From contig CP102281.1 in assembly GCA_025150425.1 (NCBI GenBank), forward strand, positions 2,604,001 to 2,668,000: 64,000 nt of DNA, written 5' to 3'. A model generated the notes under the pieces. The model saw nothing but the letters and a program-made list of their open reading frames with translations, was not told the origin of the DNA and did not search any database. Below are positions 12,787 through 64,000 of this stretch, in pieces. The translations under genes and the position numbers were made by a program. The DNA comes from [Eubacterium] siraeum (GTDB taxonomy: Bacteria; Bacillota; Clostridia; Oscillospirales; Ruminococcaceae). Every line of letters starts with the position of its first letter. Within the stretch, counting starts at the first letter, position 1.

Positions 12787-12815
12787 TTGACCTTACTGCT
12801 TTTCGGTAGTACAAT
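12787..12815 (+). promoter_or_regulatory. Promoter of the amidohydrolase gene
   Basis: TTGACC (12787-12792) and TACAAT (12810-12815), 17 bases apart. Transcription would start just before the leader hairpin at 12842. Confidence 0.75.
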
Positions 12816-12841
12816 ACAGGTAAAGAAAAAACAAGTACCGC

Positions 12842-12880
12842 AACGGCGCAGGACGATGAAAGTTCTGCGCCGTTTTGTTT
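12842..12880 (+). terminator. Leader terminator/attenuator shared with the 56.6-kb operon
   Basis: A 10-base-pair stem with AACGGCGCAG on one arm and CTGCGCCGTT on the other, around GACGATGAAAGTT, followed by TTGTTT. It lies between promoter and gene, so transcription must pass it. Nearly the same sequence, with another loop, occupies the equivalent place at 56583-56618. This suggests a common read-through control. No antiterminator structure was worked out. Confidence 0.72.
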
Positions 12881-12903
12881 ACAAAGGAAAGGATGACGTA
12901 CAA

Positions 12904-14166
12904 ATGTATGAATGCAGTTTAGACAGAATGAAGGATAAGATCTCCACTTTCAGCAAATTCGGTGATGCTGGCCACGGCGGTATCACACGTTACTCGCTCT
13001 CACCCGAGGCTATTATGGCCCGTAACGAGTTCATCAAGCGTATGAAAGCTATCGGCGCAGAGATCGAGATAGATGATGTTGCTAATATCTACGCAACGCT
13101 CCCCGGCACAGACCCCGACGCAAAGCGTATCGTAATGGCTTCCCACTGTGACTCGGTAAAAAACGGCGGTAACTATGACGGTATACTCGGCGTTATGTCG
13201 GCTATGGAGGTACTTGAAACAGTACACGAGAAGAACATCCCCCATAAGCATCCTCTCACCGCTATGATATGGACAAACGAGGAAGGCTCGCTGTATCCGC
13301 CTGCTATGATGTGTTCGGGTATCGTATGCTACGATTATCTGCCTGAAGATATCAGATGCAAGTTCAAGTATGAGGATATGATGAATTCAAAGAGCATCCT
13401 TGACAATACATCGACATTCGGTGAAGCGCTTGACAAGTCGGGCTTCAAGGGCGACAAGAAGTACCGCCTGTCACCCGACAGATATATGTATATGTTTGAA
13501 ACTCACATCGAGCAAGGTCCTATCCTTGAAGATGCAGGAAACGATATAGGCGTTGTTGACTGTGTACTGGGTATGTTCAACTACAGGCTGAAGTTCTACG
13601 GACAGACGACCCACGCAGGCACATTCCCGATGCCCAAGCGCCGTGACGCATTCTTTGCCGCATCGCAGGCTCTGTGCTATCTGCATGAGGAAATCGACAA
13701 GCTCGGCTACAGCGACCTTGTTTACACAACGGGCGAGGTTGTATGCCACCCTTGCGTACATACCTGCGTACCCGACTTCTTTGACTTCTCGTTCGACTCA
13801 CGTCACGAAGATCCCAAGGTACTTGAAAAGGTACTGGCTATCGTAAAATCCTGCGAGGAAAAAACGTGGGCAGGCTGTACCTGCAAGGTAGAAAAGGCTT
13901 GGAACCGTGATACTGTCTACTGGGATAAGAAGCTGGTAAGCTATGTAAAGACATCCGCAGAAGAATGCGGTATCAAGCACCAGTATATCCACTCAGGCGC
14001 AGGTCACGATGCACAGTTTGCCGCATATATGCTCCCGACAACTATGATATTCGTACAATCGAAGGACGGTCTTTCACACTGCGAGCCGGAATATTCAAGC
14101 CCGGAGCATTGCACTGAGGGCGCAACGGTTATGCTGAATGCTGTTCTCAAGGCAGATAATGATTAA
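12904..14166 (+). CDS. N-carbamoyl amino acid amidohydrolase (hydantoinase/carbamoylase family), probable beta-ureidopropionase
   Basis: An M20-type two-zinc hydrolase of 420 residues from ATG 12904 (MYECSLDRMKDK). Longer in-frame starts lie inside or before the leader terminator and are rejected. Motifs: ASHCDSVKNGGNYDG (zinc His/Asp and bridging Asp), TNEEGSLYPPAM (catalytic Glu pair), HIEQGPILE, GQTTHAGTFPM (dimer-domain substrate His) and SGAGHDAQ. The family removes a carbamoyl group from N-carbamoyl-beta-alanine, N-carbamoyl amino acids or allantoate. Its leader is shared with the importer-aminotransferase-hydantoinase cluster near 56-64 kb, which favours the pyrimidine step (PydC). Substrate choice is inferred. 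Confidence 0.88.
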   Translation: MYECSLDRMKDKISTFSKFGDAGHGGITRYSLSPEAIMARNEFIKRMKAIGAEIEIDDVANIYATLPGTDPDAKRIVMASHCDSVKNGGNYDGILGVMSAMEVLETVHEKNIPHKHPLTAMIWTNEEGSLYPPAMMCSGIVCYDYLPEDIRCKFKYEDMMNSKSILDNTSTFGEALDKSGFKGDKKYRLSPDRYMYMFETHIEQGPILEDAGNDIGVVDCVLGMFNYRLKFYGQTTHAGTFPMPKRRDAFFAASQALCYLHEEIDKLGYSDLVYTTGEVVCHPCVHTCVPDFFDFSFDSRHEDPKVLEKVLAIVKSCEEKTWAGCTCKVEKAWNRDTVYWDKKLVSYVKTSAEECGIKHQYIHSGAGHDAQFAAYMLPTTMIFVQSKDGLSHCEPEYSSPEHCTEGATVMLNAVLKADND

Positions 14167-49269: not shown

Positions 49270-51171
49270 TCAGACGTGCAGCTTCTCGACCTGCTCGTTA
49301 AGCAGTCTTGCCTGTGCGGAAAGCTCCTCGCAGGAAGCGGCTGTTTCTTCTGCTGTTGCGGAATTTGTCGCAATGACACGGGAAATCTGATCTATTCCTG
49401 CGGTCACCTGACGAACAGCATTCGCCTGTTCTTCTGCGGCAACAGAAATATCCGCAACGAGCTTTGCGCTTTCCTGAGAAAGCTCCGTTACCTGACGAAG
49501 CGTTTCTGCGGTCTGCTTTGCTATATCCGAGCCGTTATCCACTGCCTCTATGGTAGAGGCTATCAGATTACGGGTGCTGTTTGCAAATTCTGCCGACTTG
49601 GACGCAAGATTCCGTACCTCGTCCGCTACGACCGCAAATCCCTTGCCTGCCTCGCCTGCCCTGGCGGCCTCGATAGCCGCATTGAGTGCGAGTATGTTGG
49701 TCTGGAATGCAATATCCTCAATGGACGTGATAACCTGCGAGATAGCCTCGGATTGCTTCTGTATCTTATCCATAGCTTCAAGCAGACGCTCCATATCCTC
49801 ACTCTGATGCATCATCTGCTGTGCACAGTTGTCGGAAAGTCCGCTTGCCCTGCCGGAATTCTCCGCAGTTTTGCTGATATGGTCGGATATTCCCGAAATT
49901 GTCGAAGACAGTTTATCTACCGCAGTTGCCTGATTTGTTGTACCCTCTGCCAGTATCTGCGAACCGTCAGCCATCTGCTGTGAGCCTGCCGTAACATTGC
50001 TTGCAGAAGAATTCATACTGAGAATAACGTTGCTCAGCGTTTCCTTTATACTGCGGAACGAGCGGTTTATCTCCTCAAAGCTGCCGACATATTCCATTGA
50101 AGGCTGTGCAGAAAAGTCGCCTGTACCCATCTGTGACAACACTCGTGAAATATCGTCAACATAGCTGCTCAGCGTGTGCTTTGCTTCAGTAAGATTTTCG
50201 GCAATATCACCCATTTCATCGCCGCTGAATCTGAAAGCGGAATCCGGAGCGTTAAGCTTGCCTGAGCGGAGCTGTCCGCAGATATTTACGACTTCCGCTA
50301 CAGGCTTACGCACCAGCTTCTTCATTACTCTGAACAACAGCACCGCTATACCGCTGCATACAATAATAAGCACTCCCAGCGAAACCAGTATAGACTTTAT
50401 CAGCTCTCCGTCCGCCTCGGCTGTGGTATAGCCTGCAAAATAAGCACCTACCACCTCGCCGCTGTAATCGACCATCGGCGTATAGTTGACATAATAGTTC
50501 GTACCGCCGATAACCGTTTTTCCGATATATATATTATTGCCCTGTACCTGCTGCCAGATACCGCCGTCCATCTGAGTTCCTATGTTTCGTTCACCGGAGG
50601 AATTTATCAGCGTAGTATTGTAACGTGTGTCGCCGCAGAACAGCGTAAGCTCTGCACCGGTCTTTGCCTTGACGGAATCGACATATTCCGAGCCGTTCAG
50701 ATCTATGCAGACAACCAGTGCGCCGTTCTCTACCTTAAGCCCGTATACCGTATACAGCTTATCGCCGTCAGCCATAATGCCCTTTATTTCACCGTTCGTA
50801 ATGCGCTCTACAGCGCTTTTGCCGAGCGGAAAGCCCTCACTGCTCCATGCCACAGCCCCGCCGTTTATATAAGCCGCATAGCTGTTGGCATTAGGCTTGT
50901 TGGTAGTCCAGAAGCTGTCATAGTCCGTATTGCTTGTCTGACTGTCAGAGCTTGCAACGAACAGCTCAGCCACGTCGCCCATTTCGTCTATGTCGCCCTC
51001 GACCTCAGCGGCAAGTACGTTTATACCTGTTGCCGTTTCGTCCTCCTGTATGGTTCTGACAAATGACATAAACACGATTATCGTGACAAGCGCCATGGAT
51101 ATTGCGGCCATAACGGCGGCAATACACGAAATAACCGTTATTTTTGTTCCGATTCTCATTGATCTTTTCAC
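49270..51171 (-). CDS. Methyl-accepting chemotaxis protein with Cache sensor
   Basis: A transmembrane chemoreceptor. The start is uncertain. ATG at 51183 abuts GAAAGG with no spacer; I prefer GTG 51171, 11 bases after AAAGGA; ATG 51159 is also in frame. From 51171 it has about 633 residues. A first helix near 10-35 and a second near 270-290 flank a Cache-type ligand domain ([41 protein letters not shown]). Then come a HAMP domain and the signalling coiled coil with the hairpin [32 protein letters not shown]. No che gene or flagellar gene lies in the window. Confidence 0.9.
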
Positions 51172-51233
51172 TGTAAAAAGCATCCTTTCATATATAATAT
51201 TAGCCCTGCGTAAGTCCGCAGACCGTACTTATA

Positions 51234-52562
51234 TCACGCAACACCGAAGCCGAGAATTTCGACATATGTCATCTTATCCTCGCCGTTCTGTGTAACAGGC
51301 TTTATGCTGACCTTATGCGCTCCCTCCGCACCTGAATATGCAAGAGTTGCAACGGGATTGTTCCAGCCGTCGCTTGCGCTTGTGGCTATAGTCGTATACT
51401 TCTCGCCGTCAACGGTAAATTCAAGGGAGCCGTAGACCTTGCTGTTTGCACACTTATAGACAAGCATAAGATTCTTACCCGTGAATTCAAATTCCATAGG
51501 CTCACATTCTGACGGTTTGCCCTTGTAGCTCCAGCCGTCAGGGAAGCTCGTCAGTGTTTCCTTTTCAGTGTCAAACGTACCTGTCGACGATATTTTCAGC
51601 TTGTCGGAAGAATGAGTTCTGTCGATGAATGTCATATCAGCAAATCTGTCGGAATATACCCATGTATCCGGCAGGGGAGAGATCGTTACATCTCCCATTG
51701 TCTTTATCTTCTCGGTCGCCTTGTCAAACATATTCATAATAAGGTCGGCTGTCATCTTGTGACCCCACTCGTTCGGGTGGGATTCGTCGTCGGAATAATC
51801 CTCCCACTTCATTCTGCCCGTTTCAAACTCGTGGGAAAGTACGTTGTTCAGCGACACCATAGGCAGACCGTAAGCCTTTCCGACCTGTGACATATATTCC
51901 TCGCAGGTGTGTCCGCTCTTTATAACGGTGAAATACAGCGCAACGGCAGGCTGATTTTCCTGCGAGAGAATTTTTCTTACCATTGCGTCATAGCTGTCCT
52001 TGTATATCTGATCGTTTCCGTCATTTACCGCAAACTCAACAAACACCATATCCGGCTTATGATCAAGCACATCACGCTGAAGACGGATGTTTCCGAGTAC
52101 GCTCGGCGTTCCGCTGAGTCCTGCGTTTACATAGTTTATCTTTGTATCGGGATATTTTTCGCAAAGGCGGTCATACGTCAGCTTTGCCCAGCACTTTTCA
52201 GGTCCTGCCGTAAGACCCTCGGTGATGCTTCCGCCGATGAAGGCTATAGTTACCTCCTGCTTGCTTTCGAGCTTTCCGATAAACTTCGACATTCTTTCAA
52301 GGTTTCCGAGATCCATAAGCGACCTTTCGACCATATTGTCATATATCTGCTCCTCGGTGAGCTTGCTTTCATCTATGCTGCTTGTTTCAGATGATGTATC
52401 CGAACTGCTGCCGGTCGATTCCGATACAGATGATGTTGTCTGTGTATCGGACGAGCTGTCCGATGATACGGCAGAACCGCCGCTTGCGCTGTTATCCGCA
52501 CAGCCTGCAAGCATTGACGCACACAGCACCGCACACAGTGTTATCTTGATTTTTTTATTCAT
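51234..52562 (-). CDS. SGNH/GDSL-type secreted lipoprotein hydrolase
   Basis: A 442-residue lipoprotein: signal MNKKIKITLCAVLCASMLAGC with lipobox LAGC, a Ser/Thr/Asp linker (about 25-65), then an SGNH domain with IAFIGGSITEGLTAG (Ser), NYVNAGLSGTPSV (Gly), FVEFAVNDGND (Asn) and DESHPNEWGHKM (Asp-His). The C-terminal ~130 residues form a beta-rich domain (FEFTGKNLMLVYKCANSKVYGSLEFTVDG) that may bind carbohydrate. Such enzymes often deacetylate polysaccharides. The chemoreceptor gene lies 60 bases downstream on the same strand. Confidence 0.88.
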   Translation of the reverse strand: MNKKIKITLCAVLCASMLAGCADNSASGGSAVSSDSSSDTQTTSSVSESTGSSSDTSSETSSIDESKLTEEQIYDNMVERSLMDLGNLERMSKFIGKLESKQEVTIAFIGGSITEGLTAGPEKCWAKLTYDRLCEKYPDTKINYVNAGLSGTPSVLGNIRLQRDVLDHKPDMVFVEFAVNDGNDQIYKDSYDAMVRKILSQENQPAVALYFTVIKSGHTCEEYMSQVGKAYGLPMVSLNNVLSHEFETGRMKWEDYSDDESHPNEWGHKMTADLIMNMFDKATEKIKTMGDVTISPLPDTWVYSDRFADMTFIDRTHSSDKLKISSTGTFDTEKETLTSFPDGWSYKGKPSECEPMEFEFTGKNLMLVYKCANSKVYGSLEFTVDGEKYTTIATSASDGWNNPVATLAYSGAEGAHKVSIKPVTQNGEDKMTYVEILGFGVA

Positions 52563-52685
52563 ATTTACCTCCGTCAGAAAAGTGTGTTTATACCATTATA
52601 CAATAATCCCGACCGGTAATCAACAGTTTTTCACCAAACGAGCAATTTCACCAAAATCCGACTGTAATAATATACTATATAAACC

Positions 52686-52704
52686 GACCGCCTTACAAAC
52701 GGTC
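52686..52704. promoter_or_regulatory. Inverted repeat before mazF
   Basis: GACCG-N9-CGGTC lies about 95 bases upstream of the MazF start and just before TGTATAATT, which could be its -10 box. It may be an operator. No -35 box of good spacing was found. Confidence 0.35.
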
Positions 52705-52796
52705 AGTTGCTGTATAATTCCGTGCAGACGGTTAAAAATAACCGTGTACATCAGATACGTTCAAAGCATCGCATACGAACAGAAAGGAAGAAAACC

Positions 52797-53150
52797 ATGT
52801 TTGTAAAAAGAGGAGAGATATACTACGCAGATCTTAGCCCCGTGGTCGGAAGTGAGCAGGGTGGTATGCGTCCCGTACTTATAGTCCAGAACGATGTCGG
52901 AAACCGCCACAGCCCTACCGTTATCGCCGCCGCAATAACAAGTCAGAAGGATAAATCACGGCTTCCGACCCACATTTCGATAAATGCCGACCGTTGCGGT
53001 CTTGCGAAGGATTCGATAGTCCTGCTCGAACAGGTAAGAACGCTTGATAAGCAAAGACTCAAGGAACGTATGGGCGAGCTTGACGAGGGAGCAATGAACA
53101 AGGTCGATAATGCGCTGTCGGTCAGCTTCGGGCTTTCGGGAAACAATTAA
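52797..53150 (+). CDS. MazF/PemK-family endoribonuclease toxin, orphan
   Basis: A 117-residue protein from ATG 52797 (MFVKRGEIYYADLSPV) with AGAAAGGAAG upstream. The pattern RGEIYYADLSPVVGSEQGGMRPVLIVQND, then PTVIAAAITSQ, HISI and DSIVLLEQVRTLDKQRL is that of EndoA/MazF mRNA interferases; the conserved Arg of GGMRPV and Thr-Ser of ITSQ suit the active site. The usual antitoxin (MazE/EndoAI) should lie just upstream, but the 230 bases there hold no credible frame. In Bacillus, antitoxin lies before it, so this copy is either orphan or controlled from afar. Confidence 0.92.
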   Translation: MFVKRGEIYYADLSPVVGSEQGGMRPVLIVQNDVGNRHSPTVIAAAITSQKDKSRLPTHISINADRCGLAKDSIVLLEQVRTLDKQRLKERMGELDEGAMNKVDNALSVSFGLSGNN

Positions 53151-53275
53151 AGAATATTACCTTAACATTATGTAACGCCGTTACACAGCATCTCATATTT
53201 CGGACTATGTAAAGGTTATCATTAACAGCCGCTTTAGCTAAAGCTACAAAATTCAAGCCGTTTTCGGTTTTCCGG

Positions 53276-53304
53276 TTGTAAAATTGTCGTTATAATGGTA
53301 CAAT
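53276..53304 (+). promoter_or_regulatory. Promoter of the PPi-phosphofructokinase gene
   Basis: TTGTAA (53276-53281) and TACAAT (53299-53304), 17 bases apart, 50 bases before the ATG. Confidence 0.65.
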
Positions 53305-53354
53305 AATCACCGGAAATCTTGCGGTAATGCAAAAGACGAAACGGAGAAAAGATA

Positions 53355-54557
53355 ATGAATATAGCTATTGCACAGTCGGGCGGTCCTACGGCGGCGATAA
53401 ATTCATCGCTTTGCGGAGTTTTTGACGAGGCGGAAAAGTACAACGAGATCGACAGAATATACGGCTCGCTGAACGGCATAGAGGGTATACTGAACGATAA
53501 CCTTATCGACCTCAAGGAAGTGCTTATCACAGAAAACGACAAGCAGTTACTGAAGCGCACTCCCTCGACGGTGCTTGGCTCGTGCCGTTTCAAGCTGAAA
53601 AACAGCAGTGACGATGACAGCGACTACAAGCGTATCACGCAGACCTTCGCAAAGTATGATATAAAGGCCTTTTTCTATATCGGCGGTAACGATTCGATGG
53701 ATACCGTAATGAAGCTGGATGCTTATTTCAGAGAAAACCACATTGATATAAAGGTTGTCGGCGTGCCGAAAACGATAGACAACGATTTACCGCTTACCGA
53801 CCATACTCCCGGTTTCGGCTCTGCGGCAAAATATGTTGCGACAACATTACAGGAAATAATCCGTGACAGCCGTGTATACTCCATTCCGTCTGTTACGATA
53901 GTAGAAATAATGGGACGTGACGCAGGCTGGCTCACGGCATCGTCCTGTGTACTGCGTGCAAACGGAGAGCCTGCTCCACACCTTATCTACCTTCCCGAAA
54001 GCGACTTTTCACAGGAGCGTTACCTTGAGGACGTGAAAAGAATATCCGAAAGATACAAGGCTGTTATCGTAGCCGTTTCGGAGGGCATAGACTGCCTTGC
54101 GAGCCGCTCGGAAGCCACCGACGCATTCGGTCATAAATATCTGTCGGGTGTCGGAAAATATCTTGAAGAGCTTACCCGTGACCATATGGGCTGCAAGGTG
54201 CGTTCGATAGAGCTTAATGTAATGCAGAGATGCGGCTCGCATATAGCCTCTCTCACCGACCTTGACGAAGCGTGGAGAATAGGTGCGGCGGCTGTGAACG
54301 AGGCACTGAAATACGGCGGCAGCGGCATAATGATGGGATTCAGACGGATCAGCAACAATCCTTACCGTGTCGGCATCGTTCCGCTTGACGTAAGAGAATG
54401 TGCAAACAAGGCTAAATATTTCCCGAAGGAATGGATAACCCCCGAGGGAAACAACGTTACGATAGACGCACTGAATTACTTCCTGCCTCTTATACAGGGC
54501 GAGCCGAAGATAGATTACCGAAACGGCATACCCGTGCATTTCAGGCTTGACCAGTAG
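53355..54557 (+). CDS. Pyrophosphate-dependent 6-phosphofructokinase
   Basis: Phosphorylates fructose 6-phosphate using pyrophosphate. The 400 residues begin IAIAQSGGPTAAINSS. The motif IGGNDSMDT (Asp where ATP enzymes have Gly) and PKTIDNDLPLTDHTPGFGSAA (Lys in place of the usual Gly) are the marks of PPi use. EIMGRDAGWLTA and KVRSIELNVMQRCGSH follow. GAAACGGAGAAAAG precedes the ATG. It is monocistronic with a terminator. Many anaerobes use this reversible enzyme in place of or beside the ATP form. Confidence 0.94.
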   Translation: MNIAIAQSGGPTAAINSSLCGVFDEAEKYNEIDRIYGSLNGIEGILNDNLIDLKEVLITENDKQLLKRTPSTVLGSCRFKLKNSSDDDSDYKRITQTFAKYDIKAFFYIGGNDSMDTVMKLDAYFRENHIDIKVVGVPKTIDNDLPLTDHTPGFGSAAKYVATTLQEIIRDSRVYSIPSVTIVEIMGRDAGWLTASSCVLRANGEPAPHLIYLPESDFSQERYLEDVKRISERYKAVIVAVSEGIDCLASRSEATDAFGHKYLSGVGKYLEELTRDHMGCKVRSIELNVMQRCGSHIASLTDLDEAWRIGAAAVNEALKYGGSGIMMGFRRISNNPYRVGIVPLDVRECANKAKYFPKEWITPEGNNVTIDALNYFLPLIQGEPKIDYRNGIPVHFRLDQ

Positions 54558-54573
54558 AAGATATAAAACAAAA

Positions 54574-54608
54574 CAGGCATCGGTCATAAGCGGCCGATGC
54601 CCGTTTTT
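54574..54608 (+). terminator. Terminator of the phosphofructokinase gene
   Basis: GGCATCGG-TCATAAGCGG-CCGATGCCCGTTTTT, a stem with a T run. Confidence 0.85.
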
Positions 54609-54619
54609 CATTTTTCCAC

Positions 54620-55036
54620 TCAATCAAACTTCGTTATCTGCGGATTCCTGCAGTGCTGTAATAAATACAGCACCTCATCGCTCTTTACAAAATAAGACTT
54701 TGAATAGGTATCATCGACATAGAAGTCGAGCAGGAACTTATCCTCCCATTCGTGCAGGGATACCTTGAGCTTTTCCTTTATCTCGTCATACTTATCGCCG
54801 AATAAAGCTCTCAGCCCTTTTCCTCTGCGTAAAAAGCCGTAAACGAACATTGCTCCTCGAAAGCACGGTAAAAGCTGCGAGTAGATCGGAGAGTCACGGC
54901 GGAACTCGATAACTACCTTCTGCTCTGTAAGGCCTCCGGGTGCGTCCCTGTCCTCAGGGAGTACAGTTCTGAACTTTTCGGGCGGCATTATCGTGCCAAG
55001 CTCGATGAATTCTGCATTTTCATAGGGTGCTGTCAT
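54620..55036 (-). CDS. Hypothetical protein, 138 residues
   Basis: A soluble charged protein (MTAPYENAEFIELGTIMPPEK, then FRRDSPIYSQLLPCFRGAMFVYGFL and ALFGDKYDEIKEKLKVSLHEWEDKFLLDFYVDD). I recognise no family. GGAAGGATATATT lies before the ATG at 55036. It is convergent with the phosphofructokinase gene and is read in the same direction as the PucR regulator, 112 bases downstream of it. Codon use resembles its neighbours. Confidence 0.6.
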   Translation of the reverse strand: MTAPYENAEFIELGTIMPPEKFRTVLPEDRDAPGGLTEQKVVIEFRRDSPIYSQLLPCFRGAMFVYGFLRRGKGLRALFGDKYDEIKEKLKVSLHEWEDKFLLDFYVDDTYSKSYFVKSDEVLYLLQHCRNPQITKFD

Positions 55037-55147
55037 AATATATCCTTCCTTTCGTCCTCATATAAAACTATCGGTGTCTTTATTATATATGCGTCATCCG
55101 GCTACTTCAATGAGCCGCCGCACAATATACTTAAACTACGGCACAGC

Positions 55148-56302
55148 TTATAAAAACTCCTTTATAAAAAATGAAAGCATAAGCCTTAGCTTGTCCTCAT
55201 AATTCAGCTCACAGCCCAGTATCTCCTTTATCCTTCTCAGCTTGTAGTTTACTGTATTGCGGTGAACGAATGTTATCCTTGCGACCTCCTGCACACTGCT
55301 GTCATTTTCAAGATAGCACTTGAGCGTTTCCATATAATCCGTACCGTTTGCGCTGTCGAATTCTTCAAGCGTACCCAGCGTTTCGTCATATATCTCGTGC
55401 AGTACCGATGTATCTTTTATATGTACAAGCAGCTTGTATATGCCCATATCGCTGTAGGCTACACAGTTTTCGCCGTGCAGGGTAGCCACCTTGAGCGCCA
55501 TTACCGCCTTGCGGTAACCGTCGGATATTGCGGTGTACCCTTGCTTTGACGGGCTTATGCCGCAGGTGAGCGTCGCTCCCTCCCCGCCTGAATTGAAAAT
55601 GGTATCAAATGTCGAAAGAATCTTCCGTACATCCTCTTCTTTACAGTCGGGGCATACTGTCACAAGATTTTTATCCTGAAAGAAAAAGCTGAATTGCCTT
55701 CCGCTTGTATTCAGCACCTTTTGCATGGCGCTTGTGGCGGCTTTTTTCAACTCATCGTCACTAAGCTCGGTTTTGGAAAAGCCGCATACGCCTACGCAAT
55801 AGTCGGATGACGGGAAATAACTGCGCCGTTCAAGCGTCGATTTATATCCCGCCTCGTTCTCCGGCGAAAATATAAGGTTTCTGAGGGCGGTGGCAAGCGC
55901 CGTTTCTATCTCCTCGCCGGTTACTATCCTGTGGCAGAAGTCGTAGGTTATATCTATCAGCTTTACCTCCCACGGTACACTAAACAACGGCAGGGAATTA
56001 ATATCGCAGCAGTCTTTTACGCTTTGCGGTATACTTTTTATATATTTACCTGTGTTGATAACAAGCGCACTGCAACGTTTTTCTATCAGCTCCTCGACAA
56101 ACTTCAGCAGGTGACCTTCATCGTTTATTCCGACCCCTGTCATAAAGACCATTTCGTTTCCGTGAAGAAAAGGTGACACATCAGCGTTTTCAACCAGATG
56201 CACCCAGCGGACGTAGTTCCCCAGTCCCTCTTTTCCCGCAACAAGCTTCATAACGTAATTTGCCTGTGCATTTGCACATAGCTTTGATACTGTAATCGAC
56301 AT
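55148..56302 (-). CDS. PucR-family transcriptional regulator
   Basis: A 384-residue regulator from ATG 56302 (MSITVSKLCANAQ), which has AGAGGTGAG in front; the longer frame lacks one. The N-terminal PucR domain (LVAGKEGLGNYVRWVHLVENADVSPFLHGNEMVFMTG), a GGDEF-like middle region and the C-terminal helix-turn-helix (VARITFVHRNTVNYKLRRIKEILG) match PucR/CdaR regulators, which control purine, allantoin or other nitrogen catabolism. It diverges from the ABC importer operon at 56529, so it is the likely regulator. Its own promoter is at 56398-56426. Confidence 0.93.
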   Translation of the reverse strand: MSITVSKLCANAQANYVMKLVAGKEGLGNYVRWVHLVENADVSPFLHGNEMVFMTGVGINDEGHLLKFVEELIEKRCSALVINTGKYIKSIPQSVKDCCDINSLPLFSVPWEVKLIDITYDFCHRIVTGEEIETALATALRNLIFSPENEAGYKSTLERRSYFPSSDYCVGVCGFSKTELSDDELKKAATSAMQKVLNTSGRQFSFFFQDKNLVTVCPDCKEEDVRKILSTFDTIFNSGGEGATLTCGISPSKQGYTAISDGYRKAVMALKVATLHGENCVAYSDMGIYKLLVHIKDTSVLHEIYDETLGTLEEFDSANGTDYMETLKCYLENDSSVQEVARITFVHRNTVNYKLRRIKEILGCELNYEDKLRLMLSFFIKEFL

Positions 56303-56397
56303 ATTCTCACCTCTCTTTCTTTTAAGATAGCAAAAACCGCCAAAGCTCCCTTGTTTCCCGACAGCTCCGGCGGTGTTCATCTCGTTTATTGATATAG

Positions 56398-56426
56398 AGT
56401 ATAGCACGGTTTTGCATAATTGTCAA
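56398..56426 (-). promoter_or_regulatory. Promoter of pucR
   Basis: On the minus strand TTGACA (56421-56426) and TATACT (56398-56403), 17 bases apart, about 95 bases before the ATG. Confidence 0.8.
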
Positions 56427-56483
56427 GAGAATATTGCAAAATTCAACTACAGCACAAACAAAACGTCTTTCTTTAGGCTCTCT

Positions 56484-56499
56484 GCACAATTCAGCACAA
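56484..56499. promoter_or_regulatory. Candidate operator: two GCACAA direct repeats
   Basis: GCACAA at 56484-56489 and 56494-56499, ten bases apart (one helical turn) and ending six bases before the -35 box. The same hexamer is found at the amidohydrolase promoter near 12.7 kb, where the last copy ends 16 bases before the -35, again one turn different. Confidence 0.5.
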
Positions 56500-56505
56500 A
56501 TGCTA

Positions 56506-56534
56506 TTGCAATGCGATTTTAAGCGTGATATAAT
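56506..56534 (+). promoter_or_regulatory. Promoter of the ABC importer operon
   Basis: TTGCAA (56506-56511) and TATAAT (56529-56534), 17 bases apart. Confidence 0.75.
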
Positions 56535-56582
56535 GCAGTTAAACCGAAAGGAAACAGTGAAATAAAACAAAAAGAAACTTGC

Positions 56583-56618
56583 AACGGCGCAGAAAGTGAT
56601 TTCTGCGCCGTTTTGTTT
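56583..56618 (+). terminator. Leader terminator/attenuator, second copy
   Basis: AACGGCGCAGAAA-GTGA-TTTCTGCGCCGTTTTGTTT. A 13-base stem with a GTGA loop, then a T-rich stretch, located between the promoter and the first gene. The outer arms are the same as at 12842-12880; only the inner part differs. Confidence 0.72.
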
Positions 56619-56672
56619 TGCAGGAATAAAAAGATAAGACTTGCAAAACGGGAAAGAAAGGAGTGCTTAGAA

Positions 56673-57455
56673 ATGAGTGAAAAGGTAAATGCACCGGAGA
56701 TTTCGGTAAAGAACGTCAGTATGGTGTTCTCGGACAGCAAAGGAAATCCGGTACAGGCACTTAAGAATGTAAGCATTGATATTCAGAAAGGTGAGTTCAT
56801 ATCGCTTCTCGGCCCTTCAGGCTGCGGTAAGTCTACACTTCTTCGTATAGTATCGGATCTGCTGACCCCCACCTCAGGCGAGGTTACGGTCTGCGGTAAG
56901 ACACCGAGAGAAACAAGACTTGAGCAGAAGTTCGGTATCGTGTTCCAGAACCCCGTGCTTCTCGACTGGAGAACGGTAAGAAAGAACATAAGACTTCCGC
57001 TTGAGATGATGAAGGTTCCGAAAGAGGAACAGGCGAGCCGTATCGAACAGGTACTGGAGCTTGTCGGACTCAAGGAATTCGGAAACAGCTACCCCGGACA
57101 GCTTTCGGGCGGTATGCAGCAGAGAGTAGGCATAGCAAGAGCGCTTGCGATACAGCCCGACATACTGCTGATGGACGAACCGTTCTCGGCACTTGACGAG
57201 TTCACAAGAGAAAAGCTCAACGACGATGTACTTTCAATATGGAGAAAGACAAACAAGACGGTGCTTTTCGTAACACACAACATATCCGAGTCGGTATATA
57301 TGTCCGACAGGATCTGCGTTTTATCACCGCATCCCGGCAGACTTTCGGCAATAGTTGATGTAAATCTTCCCAGACCGAGAGTTCCGGATATGAGAGGTAC
57401 TCCCGAATTTGCCGCTCTTGTAGAGAAGGTAAGAAACAGCTTCGAGGGTATATAA
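56673..57455 (+). CDS. ABC transporter ATP-binding protein (nitrate/taurine/pyrimidine-type importer)
   Basis: Drives substrate uptake. The start is ATG 56673 (MSEKVNAPEISVKNVSMVF) with AAAGGAG upstream. The 260-residue protein has Walker A LLGPSGCGKSTLL, Q loop FGIVFQNPVLLDW, signature LSGGMQQRVGIARALA, Walker B ILLMDEPFSALDE and H loop VLFVTHNISESVYMSDRI. Its closest type is the TauB/SsuB/ThiZ group that works with NMT1-like binding proteins. Two permeases and the binding protein follow. Confidence 0.94.
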   Translation: MSEKVNAPEISVKNVSMVFSDSKGNPVQALKNVSIDIQKGEFISLLGPSGCGKSTLLRIVSDLLTPTSGEVTVCGKTPRETRLEQKFGIVFQNPVLLDWRTVRKNIRLPLEMMKVPKEEQASRIEQVLELVGLKEFGNSYPGQLSGGMQQRVGIARALAIQPDILLMDEPFSALDEFTREKLNDDVLSIWRKTNKTVLFVTHNISESVYMSDRICVLSPHPGRLSAIVDVNLPRPRVPDMRGTPEFAALVEKVRNSFEGI

Positions 57456-57476
57456 AGCCGAAAGGAGCGTTAAGAA

Positions 57477-58298
57477 ATGATAAAAAGGATAACTTCCTCC
57501 AAAGGCATAGTAACTGCCGTATGGGTGCTGGGTCTTGTAGTGATATGGGAGATATGCGCATTTATAGTAGGAGCGACACAGCGTACACCCGTAAACGTAC
57601 TTCCGCATCTGTACCGGATAATCGGCTCGTTCTTTGATACAAAGTCGATAACCGGTTCGGGCGATACGATAGCAACACTGGTTTTTTCCAGTGCCGCAGA
57701 AACGCTTTCAAGAGCGCTTATCGGTTTTATAATCGGTATGGTGCTGGGCTACATACTGGCTTTGCTGATGCACCTGTCGCACATAGTGGAAAAGATAGCG
57801 TTCCCGTATCTTATGATAATCCAGATGATACCTATTCTCGGTATGGCGCCTATTGTACTTTCAATAACGGGCGATATATCAAGCGCACGAATCATAATCG
57901 CCGCAATTCTCACATTCTACCCCGTTTCGACAAATACGCTGGCAGGCTTCAAGTCGGTCGGACGTGAAAGACACGAGCTGATGAGATCCTACGGTGCAAG
58001 CAAGTTTCAGCTTTACACAAAGATGCTTATCCCGTCGGCAATGTCCTACTTCTTCACGGGTCTTAAAATCTCGGCACCTATGGCGATAACAGCATCTATC
58101 CTTGTAGATACGCTTCAGGGCGGCAACGGTCTTGGCTGTATGCTCTCCCAGTCGCTGAAAGGCTCGATGACAAGATTCGTATTCTGGGATATAGTAATAT
58201 TCAGCGCAGTTATAGGCGTGCTGAGCTTCTATCTTATGGGCGTTATCGAAAGAGCGATAACACCGGCGAAAAGAAAGGCAAAGAAAAAAGCACAGTAA
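57477..58298 (+). CDS. ABC transporter permease, first of two
   Basis: A 273-residue inner-membrane protein with six helices. The TauC-like pattern FLRALIGFIIGMVLGYILALLM-like segment and the coupling helix (ELMRSYGASKFQLYTKMLIPSAMSYFFTGLKI) are visible. It is 21 bases downstream of the ATPase gene and lies before a second, related permease. Two unlike permeases suggest a heterodimer. Confidence 0.92.
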   Translation: MIKRITSSKGIVTAVWVLGLVVIWEICAFIVGATQRTPVNVLPHLYRIIGSFFDTKSITGSGDTIATLVFSSAAETLSRALIGFIIGMVLGYILALLMHLSHIVEKIAFPYLMIIQMIPILGMAPIVLSITGDISSARIIIAAILTFYPVSTNTLAGFKSVGRERHELMRSYGASKFQLYTKMLIPSAMSYFFTGLKISAPMAITASILVDTLQGGNGLGCMLSQSLKGSMTRFVFWDIVIFSAVIGVLSFYLMGVIERAITPAKRKAKKKAQ

Positions 58299-58316
58299 GG
58301 AAAGGACTGATCGCAC

Positions 58317-59120
58317 TTGAAAGGCAAGGTAATCAAAAACATCATAACAACAGTCGGCCTGCCCGTACTGTTCGGAGCATTGATATTCACACTGTGGCAG
58401 ACAAAGGTTCTGCACGCACTGTTCAAAACGGATGAGATAATCCTTCCGCTCCCGACAAGAATAGGCTCAATCATAGGCGATAACTTTACAAATATGTTAC
58501 CGCAGATAGCGTCAACTCTTATAGTGGCGCTCGGAGGACTTGTACTCGGCTCGATACTCGGTTACTTCATCGGCGTTGCCGGTGCGGTATTCAAGAAGTG
58601 GGGCATGGGTGGTCTGACCATAGTATCCGCATTCAACGCAATCCCGCTCGTAGCACTCGCTCCGGTTATCAACAACTGGACAAGGGATCTGTCGGGCGTG
58701 GTAGATATAAGAAGTACGGTGGCTAAGATAATCACCGTTACGATATTCTGCACAGCTTCAATGAGCGTAAACGCATACAGAGGTCTGACGGAGGTGAAAC
58801 CGTTCTCGGAGGATCTGTTTGCATCATACGGTTCAAGCAAGCTGAAAATGTTCTTCAAGCTGAGGCTCCCGAACTCACTGCCCTATGTATTCACGGCTTT
58901 AAGAGTAAGCGTTCCGTCCTGTATAATCGGTGCGGTAGTATGCGAATACTTCGCAGAGCAGGTAATCGGTGTCGGCAGACAGATAAGAGAGAACATAGTC
59001 AAGGGTCAGTTCCCGACAGCGTGGGCATATATAACGATAGCCTGCGTAATGGGCATACTGATGTACATCATACTCCTCACAGTTGAGGCAATCGTGCTGA
59101 AAAACCGCCGTGCAAGATAA
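58317..59120 (+). CDS. ABC transporter permease, second of two
   Basis: A 267-residue protein with six helices and the coupling helix DLFASYGSSKLKMFFKLRLPNSLPYVFTALR. The start codon is TTG (58317, LKGKVIKNIITTVG), with GGAAAGGACTG upstream; no better ATG exists. It is paralogous to the first permease. Then a 225-base gap without a gene precedes the binding-protein gene. Confidence 0.92.
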   Translation: MKGKVIKNIITTVGLPVLFGALIFTLWQTKVLHALFKTDEIILPLPTRIGSIIGDNFTNMLPQIASTLIVALGGLVLGSILGYFIGVAGAVFKKWGMGGLTIVSAFNAIPLVALAPVINNWTRDLSGVVDIRSTVAKIITVTIFCTASMSVNAYRGLTEVKPFSEDLFASYGSSKLKMFFKLRLPNSLPYVFTALRVSVPSCIIGAVVCEYFAEQVIGVGRQIRENIVKGQFPTAWAYITIACVMGILMYIILLTVEAIVLKNRRAR

Positions 59121-59345
59121 GCAAAAGAGCGGTTTCAGATATAAGGCGTATCGGCACTATCATTCAACGCCCATCCGATGCCATAATTTCCGTATTACTT
59201 CGTTGCTTTTTCTTGACATACAAAACAGTATGCCTACAAAAAAGCGCCTCGTTCTACGAAAATTCGGCTATCGCCTGAACGTTTCAGATAGCACCGACAC
59301 ACCTAAACTAAAACCAGTTTTAAAGACGAGAAAGGATGAAACATT

Positions 59346-60494
59346 ATGAAAAACAAAAGAGTGTTAGCGGCATTACTCGCAGCAAGCTGTCTTGCTACAT
59401 CGTTCACCGCTTGTTCCGGTGACAGCTCATCAAGCAGCACTGCAGAAAGCTCAGCCGCATCGGCAGACGCTTCTTCAAGCGCCGCAGAGGGTTCTTCGGA
59501 AAGCACAGGTCTTATGAGCGATGAAGAAATCATCAAGAAGGCTTCAAGCGAAAACAAGGTCGGCAACTGGGGTCTCGGCAACGAGTACGAAATTCAGGCT
59601 CTGCTTTCAAAGTACGGTCTGCCCACAGATTATATCACAATGGACTTCACAATGGATCAGATAGATAAGGATACTATTACGCTGGCATCGGCAATGACAT
59701 TCAACGAGCTTGGTCTTATCAAGAACAACTATGACGGCGGTTATAACTACGGCGATGAGATCGGTGTCATCGATATGAACGATGAGGGTGTTGCGATGCT
59801 CGAGGATAACCTGTTCTGCACAAAGGAATTCGCAAAGAACAACCCCAATACAGTAAAGGCATTCGTTGCCGCATCAATGAAGGGCTGGACATATGCGTGC
59901 GAGCATCCCGATGAAGCCGCAGAAATCGTATTCAAGTACGGCTCATCGGTATCGGCTGACCACCAGAAGTATATGGCTTCAGAGGTTGCAAAGCTTGTAA
60001 CGACAGATACAAAGGGCAATGCGGTTTCCGCTTCGGATGTAGGTAAGATGGACGAAGACGCTATGCAGCAGACACTTGACCTTGCTAAGCAGTACATCAA
60101 GCTTGATGACGCTACAGCGGCAGACAAGCTCGCTAAGCTTACACTTGATGACATCCGTTCTTCCGACTATCTGACATATGACGGCGGAGCAGTTGAGAAG
60201 TCTGACCTCAAGGTTCAGCTTAAATGGTTACCACAGGCTCAGTTCATGGGCTATTATGTAGCACTTGACAAGGGCTACTACAAAGATAACGGCCTTAACG
60301 TAGAGATCGTAAGCGGCGGCGGTGACGTTTCTGAAACAGTTGCAGTAAGCAACGGTACTGTTGACTTCGGTGTAACGTGGGTTTCTAACCTTATCAACGC
60401 CAACGCAGGCGGTATGGAGCTTCTCGAAGTAGCTCAGGTATATCAGAGATCAGGTCTTGTTCTTTGCTACAAGAAGAGCCAGTTTACAAAGTAA
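59346..60494 (+). CDS. ABC substrate-binding lipoprotein, NMT1/THI5-like, circularly permuted
   Basis: A 382-residue lipoprotein: signal to the Cys at 23 (FTAC), Ser/Ala/Glu linker (24-56), then two domain parts in reversed order. Residues 71-275 (KVGNWGLGNEYEIQALL, LASAMTFNELGLI, VIDMNDEGVAMLEDNLF, GWTYACEHPDEAAEIV) match what is normally the second half of this family. Residues 288-378 (LKVQLKWLPQAQFMGYYVALDKGYYKDNGLNVEIV, FGVTWVSNLI, VAQVYQRSGLVLCYKKS) match the normal first half. The last residues would join the first in a standard protein. GAAAGGATGAAACATT precedes the ATG. Confidence 0.93.
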   Translation: MKNKRVLAALLAASCLATSFTACSGDSSSSSTAESSAASADASSSAAEGSSESTGLMSDEEIIKKASSENKVGNWGLGNEYEIQALLSKYGLPTDYITMDFTMDQIDKDTITLASAMTFNELGLIKNNYDGGYNYGDEIGVIDMNDEGVAMLEDNLFCTKEFAKNNPNTVKAFVAASMKGWTYACEHPDEAAEIVFKYGSSVSADHQKYMASEVAKLVTTDTKGNAVSASDVGKMDEDAMQQTLDLAKQYIKLDDATAADKLAKLTLDDIRSSDYLTYDGGAVEKSDLKVQLKWLPQAQFMGYYVALDKGYYKDNGLNVEIVSGGGDVSETVAVSNGTVDFGVTWVSNLINANAGGMELLEVAQVYQRSGLVLCYKKSQFTK

Positions 60495-60536
60495 TTCACG
60501 GTTTCGGATTACTCCGGAAGCTGAAAGGCGGTATAT

Positions 60537-60995
60537 ATGAGCGAAAAGAAAATACTTGTAAGCGGTTGCCTTTTCGGCTGGCATTGCCGCTATGATGACG
60601 GCGATACGCCGTGTCTGCACCCACAGTTCCTTAAATGGAAAGAGGAGGGCAGACTGATACCGGTATGTCCCGAAGTGTTCGGCGGTCTTCCGACCCCACG
60701 TCCCGATTGTCAGCGTACAGGCGATAAGGTGATGAGCTGCGCAGGCGGCGACTGCACCGAGCAGTACACAAAAGGCGCAAACGAGGCGTTAAGACTTGCA
60801 AAGGAAAACGATGTTGCTCTTTGCATAATGAAAGAAGACAGCCCCTCCTGCGGAAGCACCCACATATATGACGGTACCTTCACGGATACGATCATCGAGG
60901 GACAGGGGCTTGCGGTAGAATATCTCAGAAACGCAGGCTACAAGGTATTCAGCGAGAATATGATTGAAGAAGTCATAAAGGCACTCGCAAAGTAA
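60537..60995 (+). CDS. DUF523 family protein
   Basis: A 152-residue protein with the family sequence VSGCLFGWHCRYDD, then PVCPEVFGGLPTPRPDCQ and CIMKEDSPSCGSTHIYDG; the conserved cysteines suggest metal or redox chemistry. The family role is unknown. It is encoded between the binding protein and the dehydrogenase on the same strand, an unusual but steady-looking position in this operon. AAAGGCGG precedes the ATG. Confidence 0.88.
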   Translation: MSEKKILVSGCLFGWHCRYDDGDTPCLHPQFLKWKEEGRLIPVCPEVFGGLPTPRPDCQRTGDKVMSCAGGDCTEQYTKGANEALRLAKENDVALCIMKEDSPSCGSTHIYDGTFTDTIIEGQGLAVEYLRNAGYKVFSENMIEEVIKALAK

Positions 60996-61026
60996 ACACT
61001 ACAGCAATTTATACAGTGAGTTCAGT

Positions 61027-61123
61027 ATCGCACGAGCAGTTAAATACCGTTCGTGCGATCGGGAAAGACGTCAGGGCGGACGTATCACGGCACAGCGGTC
61101 GTTTCGCTCCGACGTTTTTCCCG
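61027..61123 (+). other. Two adjacent hairpins in the operon, structured intergenic RNA
   Basis: ATCGCACGA-N15-TCGTGCGAT (61027-61059), followed immediately by a 13-base stem CGGGAAAGACGTC/GACGTTTTTCCCG (61060-61123, one G-T pair) with a smaller AGCG/CGCT arm inside. No T run follows at once. This could be a processing or stability element between the importer genes and the enzymes. I recognise no riboswitch. Confidence 0.6.
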
Positions 61124-61170
61124 ATAAAAATACAAACTTTATCAAGAGCAGAAGGAAAGAGGGTATAACA

Positions 61171-62310
61171 GTGGTATTCAGATCACCACCAACGATTATT
61201 TACGGCAAGGGTACAGTTACCTCAGTCGGAGAGCAGGCGGCCCGCTTCGGAAAAAGGGCGGTGCTTGTCTGCGGAAAAGGCTCGCTTAGAAAAAGCGGAG
61301 TGCTTGATATTATAGTATCAAGCCTCGAAAAAGCAGGCGTTTCCTGTGCGGTATACGACCGTGTAGGCTCAGACCCGACCACATCGGATGTTGACAAGGG
61401 TGCGGCTTTTGCAAAGGAAAACGGCTGTGATGTAATAGTAGCGGCAGGCGGAGGAAGTCCTCTTGATGCGGCAAAGGGAATCGGAATGCTGCTCACAAAC
61501 GGCGGCAAGGTGACCGATTACGAAAAGACCGCTCCCGAAAAGGAGTCGCTCCCCATTATCGCAATACCGACCACAGCCGGCACAGGCAGTGAAGCGACAA
61601 GATACTCGGTAATCACAGATACCGACAGAAACATAAAGATGCTGTTATCGACAGACGGAATCATTCCGAAGGTAGCAATTCTTGACTTTGCGATAACAAA
61701 ATCATTGCCGCCGTTTATGACAGCGGCAACCGGAATGGATGCTCTGACCCACGCAATAGAGAGCTACATAAACGTCAACGCATCGCCTATGACAAAGATG
61801 TATTCGCTTGAAGCGATAAGGCTGATTTCAAAGAGCTTAATCCCGGCTGTCCTTGACGGCAGGAACGAGCAGGCAAGAGAGGATATGCTCCTTGCCGCCT
61901 TATATGCCGGAATCGCAATATGCAGTACGCCGACAGCGCTTGTTCACTCAATGTCAAGACCGCTCGGAGCGTGGTTCCATATTCCGCACGGTCTCGCAAA
62001 CGCAATGCTTCTAAGTACGGTTATGGAATATAACCGCCCGTCCTGCCCCGAAAAATTCCGTGACATCGCAATAGCGATGGGTGAGAATGTCGAGGGCTTG
62101 TCGGTAAGAGAGGCAAGTATAGCGGCAGTTGAAGCTATCGCCGCAATAGCGGACGAAACAGGACTTCCGAAGCTGCTTTCTTCACAGGGAGTAACAGAGG
62201 ACAAGATACCGACTCTTGCAAAGGACGCATTCGCCGCAGGAAGTACGGCTAACAACCCCAGAGTTCCCACAGTAGAAGAAATCGAAACGATATATAAAAG
62301 TATTTTCTGA
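61171..62310 (+). CDS. Iron-containing alcohol dehydrogenase, candidate malonate-semialdehyde reductase
   Basis: A 379-residue group III dehydrogenase. The start is GTG 61171 (MVFRSPPTIIYGKG) with GGAAAGAGGG upstream. NAD motif GGGSPLDAAKGIG, PTTAGTGSEATRYSVITD, and metal ligands in DALTHAIESYIN (Asp and His) and HSMSRPLGAWFHIPHGLANAM (His residues) are seen. In this cluster it could reduce the aldehyde formed from beta-alanine to 3-hydroxypropionate. That role is inferred from neighbours; other aldehydes are possible. Confidence 0.9.
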   Translation: MVFRSPPTIIYGKGTVTSVGEQAARFGKRAVLVCGKGSLRKSGVLDIIVSSLEKAGVSCAVYDRVGSDPTTSDVDKGAAFAKENGCDVIVAAGGGSPLDAAKGIGMLLTNGGKVTDYEKTAPEKESLPIIAIPTTAGTGSEATRYSVITDTDRNIKMLLSTDGIIPKVAILDFAITKSLPPFMTAATGMDALTHAIESYINVNASPMTKMYSLEAIRLISKSLIPAVLDGRNEQAREDMLLAALYAGIAICSTPTALVHSMSRPLGAWFHIPHGLANAMLLSTVMEYNRPSCPEKFRDIAIAMGENVEGLSVREASIAAVEAIAAIADETGLPKLLSSQGVTEDKIPTLAKDAFAAGSTANNPRVPTVEEIETIYKSIF

Positions 62311-62331
62311 TAAAAGAAAGGAAGAAACAGT

Positions 62332-63669
62332 ATGAGATACGGATTCAAAAACGCAGAAGAGGTAAAGGAAACCTCCCTTAAGTACAACCTTCATTCGTGG
62401 AGCGTTCAGGGCAAGCTGAACCCCGCAGTAGTAGAAAAGGCAGAGGGTATTTATTACTATACCGCAGACGGCAAGAAGATGGCTGATATGTCAAGCCAGC
62501 TTGTAAACCTGAATGTCGGCTACGGCAACAAGGATATTATCGACGCTATCAAGGAGCAGGCAGAAAAGCTCGCATACATCAGCCCGGCTTACGCTATCGA
62601 CTGCCGTTCAAAGCTCGCAGAGATGGTCGTAAAGGCAGCTCCGAAGAATATGGGCAAGGTATTCTTCACCTTAGGCGGCGCAGACGCTAACGAGAATGCA
62701 ATAAAGATTGCAAAGCTGGTTACAGGCAGATACAAGATATTCTCAAGATACCGTGCATATCACGGAAGCTCATTCGGCGCAGGTAACCTGACAGGCGAGC
62801 CCAGAAGATACACACTTGAACCCGGTATCCCCGGCTTCGTAAAGTTTACAGATCCTTATCTGTATCACGCTCCGTTCCCCTTTGAGAGCGAAGAACAGGC
62901 TACAGAGTATTATCTCGGACAGCTCCGTGACCAGATTATATACGAAAATCCCGATGCGGTTGCCGCTATCGTAATGGAATCGGTAACAGGCTCAAACGGT
63001 ATCATCATCCCGCCCAAAGGCTACTTACAGGGTGTACGCAAGATATGCGACGAGTTCGGCATTATGATGGTCTGCGACGAGGTAATGGCAGGCTGGGGCA
63101 GAACAGGCGAATACTTCGCTTGTGAAAACTGGGGCATCGAGCCTGATATGATAACCTTCGCAAAGGGCGTTACCTGCGGATACGCTCCTCTCGGCGGCGT
63201 AATCGTAAGCAAGAAGATTGCTGAGTTCTTCGATACACACAAACTCGACTGCGGTCTTACATATTCAGCTCATCCTCTGGGCTGTGCCGCAGGTGTTGCG
63301 TGCCTTAACTTCTATGAAAAAGAACACATTATGGATAAGGTAAAGGAGCGTGGCAAGCAGTTAGGCGCACTCCTTGAGGATATAAAGGCAAAGCACAAGA
63401 GCGTGGGTGATGTGCGTTATATCGGCCTGTTCTCCTGCGTAGAGCTTACAAAGGATAAGGCAACGCACGAGCCTCTCGTTCCTTTCGGCAAGGACCCTGA
63501 GGGCATTATGGGCAAGATAGTCGGAATGTTAAAGGCTAAGGGCTTCAACACATATTCACACGAGGCTTGCATTTTCGTTTGCCCGCCTCTCATTATCACA
63601 GAAGAAGAGCTTGCAGAGAATATGGCAATACTGGACGAAGTTCTGACAGAAGTAGACAAGATGGTCTGA
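62332..63669 (+). CDS. Class III aminotransferase, candidate beta-alanine aminotransferase
   Basis: A 445-residue PLP enzyme. PLP features: GGADANENAIKIAK, YRAYHGSSFGAG, the Asp of VCDEVMAGWGRTG and the Schiff-base Lys in DMITFAKGVTCGYAPLGG. The fold is of the omega-amino acid/4-aminobutyrate type. With a hydantoinase and carbamoylase it probably transfers the amino group of beta-alanine (pyrimidine route) to an oxo acid. AAAGGAAGAAAC precedes the ATG, 21 bases after the dehydrogenase. Confidence 0.92.
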   Translation: MRYGFKNAEEVKETSLKYNLHSWSVQGKLNPAVVEKAEGIYYYTADGKKMADMSSQLVNLNVGYGNKDIIDAIKEQAEKLAYISPAYAIDCRSKLAEMVVKAAPKNMGKVFFTLGGADANENAIKIAKLVTGRYKIFSRYRAYHGSSFGAGNLTGEPRRYTLEPGIPGFVKFTDPYLYHAPFPFESEEQATEYYLGQLRDQIIYENPDAVAAIVMESVTGSNGIIIPPKGYLQGVRKICDEFGIMMVCDEVMAGWGRTGEYFACENWGIEPDMITFAKGVTCGYAPLGGVIVSKKIAEFFDTHKLDCGLTYSAHPLGCAAGVACLNFYEKEHIMDKVKERGKQLGALLEDIKAKHKSVGDVRYIGLFSCVELTKDKATHEPLVPFGKDPEGIMGKIVGMLKAKGFNTYSHEACIFVCPPLIITEEELAENMAILDEVLTEVDKMV

Positions 63670-63704
63670 TAAGCAACAGTTATTACGGGAAAGGACGGTA
63701 AGTT

Positions 63705-64000
63705 ATGGATCTCATAATCAAAAACGGTACGATAGTTTCACCAACGGCTACATTCAAAGCCGATGTGTGCGTGGATAACGGCAAGATAGTTGCAATAACG
63801 GCAGATGCCGGCACAGATGCCGACAAGGTGGTAGACGCAAGCGGCAAGATGGTGCTCCCCGGTGCCATTGACGCACATACCCACCTTGCAATGCCCTTCG
63901 GCGGCACAATTTCATCCGATGACTACTACGCAGGCACAAGAGCAGCCGCCTGCGGCGGTACGACAACGGTATTCGACTTCATTTTACAGGATTTCGGTGA
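63705..64000 (+). CDS. Hydantoinase/dihydropyrimidinase (partial)
   Basis: The first 98 codons of a cyclic amidohydrolase; the gene continues past the window. ATG 63705 has AAAGGACGG upstream. The beginning MDLIIKNGTIVSPTATFKADVCVDNGKIVAI and the metal motif MVLPGAIDAHTHLAMPFGGTISSDDYYAGTRAAACGGTTTVFDF match D-hydantoinase and dihydropyrimidinase. It would open the dihydropyrimidine ring. The carboxylated lysine and later ligands lie outside the window. Confidence 0.93.
   Translation, partial: MDLIIKNGTIVSPTATFKADVCVDNGKIVAITADAGTDADKVVDASGKMVLPGAIDAHTHLAMPFGGTISSDDYYAGTRAAACGGTTTVFDFILQDFG

Follow-up and report, generated by a model that had tools for sequence, protein, structure and literature searches.

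A circularly permuted substrate-binding lipoprotein of the NMT1/THI5 family in a pyrimidine degradation operon

Can a substrate-binding protein of the NMT1/THI5 family carry its two halves in swapped order, and if so, how did it arise and what does it bind? The question is raised by the gene at 59346-60494 of the window, by which we mean the whole 64,000-nucleotide stretch of [Eubacterium] siraeum DNA that was analyzed. A sequence-only reading had proposed that the product is a circular permutant. We conclude that it is very probably a lipid-anchored type II ABC binding protein, a circularly permuted product of the NMT1/THI5 family, and that it captures a pyrimidine for a co-encoded importer.

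The two halves of the protein are swapped

PF09084 (NMT1) matches the 382-amino-acid product in two stretches, at 115 bits against a gathering cut-off of 20.5. When residues 60-275 were scanned alone, residues 71-191 aligned to profile positions 95-216 (E = 6e-14); when residues 281-382 were scanned alone, residues 298-379 aligned to profile positions 2-83 (E = 1e-18). The matches are not collinear: profile positions 95-216 come before 2-83, as the sequence-only reading had claimed, and we found no known family to which both parts align in the normal order. Proteins from four other loci (L091, L092, L045, and L107) also match the profile in two stretches, with profile positions 2-80 at the C-terminal end. 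Similarly, when phmmer was used to compare the protein to its best two solved relatives (4nmy and 3ix1), residues 288-367 aligned to their start and residues 129-212 to a later part. Judging by profiles, models, and trees, both halves share homology with a single normal-order family, and the protein retains the fold. We filed the product as a permuted branch of NMT1/THI5, and not as a canonical member. The gene and its parts, all on the + strand, are as follows:

59346..60494, +: circularly permuted NMT1/THI5-type substrate-binding lipoprotein, 382 amino acids (profile matches, same-order relatives, predicted model)
59346..59414, +: signal peptide and lipobox-like FTA|C, with C23 (sequence)
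59415..59513, +: Ser/Ala-rich linker (sequence)
59514..59555, +: new N-terminal helix, residues 57-70, MSDEEIIKKASSEN, in place of a loop in normal-order relatives (model helix H3-12 and family conservation)
59556..60170, +: the normally later half, residues 71-275, with NMT1 profile positions 95-216 and the C-terminal helices (profile, model, alignment)
60171..60203, +: linker at the old C-to-N junction (alignment with normal-order homologs, such as the one in L147 that stops at DTSYWKEATGK)
60204..60491, +: the normally first half, residues 287-382, with NMT1 profile positions 2-83; its last element is the first hinge strand, GLVLCYKK (profile, model, alignment)

From type II topology, residues 71-275 would comprise the second lobe, the return strand of the hinge, and the first lobe's C-terminal part. 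The signal peptide, the lipobox-like motif, and the linker are all present in the sequence ahead of the moved half, where a new lipoprotein signal and Ser-rich linker had been reported. At the new N-terminal helix, the family conserves the motif E-x-I-I-K-x-A-A-x-x-G-K-V-G-N-W.

The swapped order is conserved across genomes

We scanned a collection of 84,980 species genomes, which yielded 200 confirmed relatives, and we kept the best 80 (at least 65% identical in the best segment). A script placed both halves on every long open reading frame (ORF) of the fetched loci. This gave 93 permuted ORFs, including one in each of the best 80 of the 200 collection relatives. Chance can be excluded because all 93 share the swapped order, and the mapping script found no third half or extra copy of either half in any of them. 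After dropping duplicates and adding a few later loci, 88 different permuted sequences remained. The normal-order ORFs described below came solely from separate genome-search loci and not from the 80 collection-scan loci.

The carriers among the best 80 of the 200 relatives belong to Clostridia (Bacillota) and Spirochaetota. They include isolates (Ruminococcus bromii, Defluviitalea phaphyphila, Eubacterium oxidoreducens, Lacrimispora algidixylanolytica, and Anaerocolumna), and the records labeled as Spirochaetota are Treponema, Spirochaeta, and Sphaerochaetaceae MAGs. In the genomes that we sampled, the gene is patchy: it is present in 12 of 60 from the genus, 7 of 391 from the class, 2 of 399 from the phylum, and 9 of 150 from the family of genome G209. 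No phage match to the permuted protein was found. Plasmid matches were all below 60% identity, and among those listed, any that span most of the query match it as two segments.

The permuted gene is under strong purifying selection: dN/dS against relatives is 0.02 to 0.10, with synonymous sites near saturation beyond the closest relative. These results bear on whether a misassembly or frame artifact joined the halves of two neighboring normal genes, which would look identical in a local view of one genome. However, the source genome is a single contig and is 99.99% complete, it contains no second close copy of the gene, and the low dN/dS also argues against an artifact. The swapped order in 80 independent genome loci, isolates among them, refutes this explanation. 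We reject it and give it almost no credence.

Normal-order homologs and the junctions

Full-length normal-order homologs are present in other Bacillota (L147/L018, L148/L019, L149, L150, and L157 to L160), and a more distant normal-order set is found in L151, L153, and L154. Three of the homologs that are close to the window protein are at

L147:6776-7807
L148:7459-8526
L159:1444-2607

We measured identity to the window protein half by half for six of the closer homologs (L147, L148, L150, L157, L158, and L159). The early half is 50-58% identical and the late half is 45-48% identical. For the distant homolog in L151, the two halves are 39% and 41% identical. The normal-order binding proteins from pyrimidine operons are about 50% identical to the permuted protein and share its KW.PQ.QF.GYY, GG.D, GNE[YF]E, and VAMLEDxxF motifs. 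Unlike the permuted protein, they have the canonical order of halves and an intact loop between the hinge strand and the second lobe.

Across the cut site, the normal homologs in L018 and L147 read ...LLVSKKSSNINSVADLKGKKVASWFGGNEYE..., and in the alignment the L147 protein reads ...AQVFQKSAMLLVSKKSSNINSVADLKGKKVASWFGGNEYE... and terminates at ...DTSYWKEATGK. Permuted proteins typically end with ...AQVYQRSGLVLVYKK and a few more residues, and after the new helix they start with GKVGNWGLGNEYE. Their old ends meet at a junction such as ...DTSYWEAA, a short linker, and SIQLKWLPQAQ. The alignment with L147 thus indicates that the old ends are joined by a short linker and that the new ends lie in the loop that follows the first hinge strand. 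It had been claimed that the C-terminal end leads straight into the beginning. The swapped order holds, but the direct join does not: about 12-13 loop residues of the normal homologs are gone at the cut, and a new helix of about 12 residues is inserted ahead of KVGNWG.

Genome G454 has both forms, each with its own importer genes: a permuted protein in a Pyd cluster (L152) and a distant normal-order protein with TudS (L151).

Origin of the permutation

On trees of the early half, of the late half, and of both combined, the permuted state is a single change. Support for the permuted clade is only moderate (bootstrap 43, SH-aLRT 89); it is stronger for the close normal group (96/86). Because the NMT1/THI5 family at large is in the normal order, we take the permutation to be the derived state. 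We also considered whether the two pieces might come from different NMT1 paralogs by domain shuffling rather than from one permuted gene. For another permuted binding protein, TpMglB-2, the authors allowed for a different gene as the source of the permuted part (PMC4990184). However, both halves of our protein are closest to the same normal-order homologs, at similar identities, and the separate half-trees put the permuted proteins in the same position. Shuffling is therefore improbable, and we favor the permutation of a single gene.

Circular permutations usually arise by tandem duplication followed by trimming of the outer halves. This origin, which the sequence-only reading had put forward, is plausible here and fits the linker. 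We found no duplication intermediate in the source genome or among the permuted ORFs of the fetched loci. Members labeled as Spirochaetes are scattered inside clostridial branches, which suggests lateral transfer. As for the 225-bp gap upstream of the gene, we considered and rejected a remnant or a mobile element there; the gap is single-copy in the source genome.

Predicted structure and the hinge

An AlphaFold model of the permuted protein, built from 59 permuted sequences, is confident (pLDDT 94.2, pTM 0.92), as is a model of a normal-order homolog (pLDDT 93.3, pTM 0.86). The permuted model begins with the strands and helices of the later half, continues with a run of C-terminal helices, and ends with strand-helix-helix-strand-helix-strand-helix-strand-strand. 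This order is a rotation of that in the normal homolog's model. The protein has what is expected of a type II ABC substrate-binding protein: two predicted lobes of alternating helices and strands (alpha/beta), a secretion signal, and a co-encoded importer. Both lobes had been described as intact, which agrees with the bilobed model.

Foldseek, which depends on the order of the elements, was run on the normal model as a control and matched it to 4nmy, 3ix1, THI5, TauA, and SsuA (E = 6e-25 to about 1e-14). With the permuted model, it gave no match to any of these five at E ≤ 0.001. Instead, the top hits were OpuAC chains, at E = 1e-6 with TM of 0.4-0.5, rmsd above 10, and 11% identity.

Type II binding proteins have two strands that pass from one lobe to the other. 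By alignment and element order, the cut immediately follows GLVLCYKK, which is the first of these hinge strands (315-320 in the model). Since the cut is at the first lobe crossover, a single covalent hinge segment should link two lobes that are each contiguous. Specifically, the chain would first form lobe two, make its only crossing via the second strand (NLFCTKEF, strand 99-103), and then build the whole of lobe one. Each lobe would be a continuous chain, with one covalent hinge segment instead of two and with the lipid anchor on the opposite lobe (lobe two), while the pocket and the clamshell motion would be kept. We infer the single hinge, the contiguous lobes, and the shift of the anchor from the element order and type II topology, and the lobe boundaries are drawn on the same basis.

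Genome context points to a pyrimidine ligand

The gene is part of an operon that encodes an importer and enzymes for pyrimidine degradation, beside a divergent regulator:

55148..56407, -: PucR-family regulator, divergent (PF07905, PF13556)
56613..57455, +: ABC transporter ATPase, SaoA/nitrate/taurine type (PF00005, E = 1e-36)
57477..58298, +: ABC permease 1 (PF00528)
58317..59120, +: ABC permease 2 (PF00528)
60537..60995, +: 2-thiouracil desulfidase TudS (DUF523), directly after the binding protein (PF04463, E = 9e-40)
61171..62310, +: Fe-alcohol dehydrogenase, a candidate malonic semialdehyde reductase with a putative PydE role (PF00465/PF25137)
62332..63669, +: class-III aminotransferase, a candidate beta-alanine aminotransferase with a putative PydD role (PF00202, E = 9e-85)
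63705..63998, +, continuing at L146:1206-2567: start of dihydropyrimidinase, PydB (TIGR02033 on the N-terminal part; L146 ORFs)
L146:2648-4132, after PydB: PydA (PreA NF006183, E = 4e-178)

The importer operon is intact, as had been supposed, with the ATPase and two permeases upstream and the Pyd genes downstream. PydA and PydB lie in one cluster, as in reductive pyrimidine degradation operons. PydA has DHO_dh, N-terminal Fer4_20, and C-terminal Fer4 domains and no match to an FAD or NAD(P)H domain, and it looks like the ferredoxin-dependent PydAc type. Clostridial Pyd clusters with PydAc have been described, and they share PydA (DHO_dh plus Fer4), PydB, the aminotransferase, and the dehydrogenase with this operon (PMC7332683). 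That paper does not discuss an importer or binding protein: the words "transporter" and "NMT1" are absent from its text.

About 46 kb from the other pyrimidine degradation genes is a candidate beta-ureidopropionase/hydantoinase-carbamoylase (ORF 12787-14166, with TIGR01879 above its cut-off at 12925-14151), which may complete the pathway. The pyrimidine operon is followed by flagellar genes (FlgN, FlgK, flagellin-like, and FliD, along with DUF6470; L146:5469-12541).

Most of this context is conserved. Among the 80 permuted loci (the best of 200), dihydropyrimidinase is found in 78, PydA in 74, each permease in 79, and the ATPase in 77. The aminotransferase (61 loci) and the PucR regulator (55) are less common. 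Across all of these genes, the losses are partly due to contig ends. The normal-order homologs in L147 and L148 lie in the same kind of cluster (ABC, PucR, PydB, PydA, and aminotransferase), and an aminotransferase adjoins the homolog in L159. TudS occurs in just 4 of the 80 permuted loci, yet it is close to the normal-order homologs in L147, L148, L150, L151, L153, and L154, hinting at salvage of thiopyrimidines via the same importer.

This gene context makes uracil or a related compound, taken up via the co-encoded importer, the most likely ligand. The earlier lead of a pyrimidine precursor is sharpened to a reductive pyrimidine (uracil) degradation operon. The protein would capture a pyrimidine (uracil, thymine, dihydrouracil, or a thio-analog) and pass it to the ABC importer, and the imported compound would feed the degradation enzymes of the same operon.

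Alternatively, the protein might bind another ligand, such as a thiamine precursor, beta-alanine, or N-carbamoyl-beta-alanine, and merely lie beside pyrimidine genes. The nearest solved relatives of the normal-order homolog (4nmy and 3ix1) do bind thiamin or formylaminopyrimidine. But the linkage to PydB and PydA is near-universal across two phyla and in several gene orders, TudS is a neighbor, and positions 50000-64000 of the window contain no TPP riboswitch or other Rfam match. We consider another ligand to be unlikely, although less so than the other alternatives. A role outside transport, as a sensor or a THI5-type suicide enzyme, is very improbable: the THI5 family does include an enzyme of the same fold, but this protein has a signal peptide and lipobox, and the ATPase and two permeases are directly upstream in nearly all loci. 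Overall, the swapped protein appears to be fully functional, and capture of a pyrimidine for import is the role that we favor.

Comparison to other binding proteins

Natural permutation is already known from two other groups of binding proteins. First, TpMglB-2 (Tp0684) of Treponema pallidum is a naturally permuted ABC ligand-binding lipoprotein, was proposed as type Ic, and has relatives in treponemes and Gram-positive bacteria; its structure was solved, it binds glucose, and its conformation changes as in normal binding proteins (PMC4990184). It differs from our protein in its type I fold and its ligand, and its permuted part is just 13% identical to the normal-order counterpart. Also, its permutation adds a fourth crossover (PMC4990184), while the NMT1 protein should lose the covalent continuity of one. 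Type Ic denotes a type I sugar-binding fold with a permuted first lobe, but our protein belongs to the NMT1 family by profile and to type II.

The lipid tether has been offered as an explanation for TpMglB-2. By a simple pattern, 81 of our 88 permuted orthologs have a lipobox, and two of the other seven resemble lipobox variants (L045, NGC; L105, YGC). The remaining five, from Spirochaetota-labeled loci (L077, L091, L100, and L114) and a clostridial MAG (L089), have no evident lipobox. Because of these five, the permuted proteins are not always lipid-anchored, and a tether-driven explanation is weakened.

Second, the glycine-betaine binding proteins OpuAC and ProX, which are type II, are reported to be circular permutants of one another (PMC2395249), and OpuAC from L. 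lactis is described with two connecting hinge segments (PMC2861598). Although OpuAC is the top PDB match of the permuted model, sequence homology is not apparent at about 11% identity with rmsd above 10, and it belongs to another subfamily with another ligand.

Within the family, the thiamin-binding 4nmy from C. difficile, the FAMP-binding 3ix1, and yeast THI5 share the fold, and each half of the permuted protein aligns to them. However, they are in the normal order, have thiamin or pyrimidine-precursor ligands, and match the normal-order homolog at full length. Our search of an open-access library turned up no report of a permuted NMT1/THI5 protein.

Implications

Tentatively, these proteins may be natural one-hinge "Venus flytraps" that make up a large family, with contiguous lobes, a second hinge strand that is held only non-covalently, and the anchor on the opposite lobe. 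Opening and docking to the importer would be altered, and anaerobes may have adapted their pyrimidine scavenging in this way. Among natural circular permutations, this one is unusually clean. The natural pairs of permuted and normal proteins, which are about 50% identical with matching motifs and equivalent operons, make the effects of re-wiring on stability, opening, and transport testable. As the Foldseek result for the permuted model illustrates, collinear fold searches miss such proteins.

The importer is likely a uracil importer of gut anaerobes, in a pathway that is relevant to the metabolism of fluoropyrimidine drugs; PreTA and HydA from Anaerostipes hadrus convert 5-fluorouracil (PMC11036815). 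More broadly, the permuted family is widespread in gut and anaerobic bacteria, and its gene context ties it to importing and degrading uracil-like compounds.
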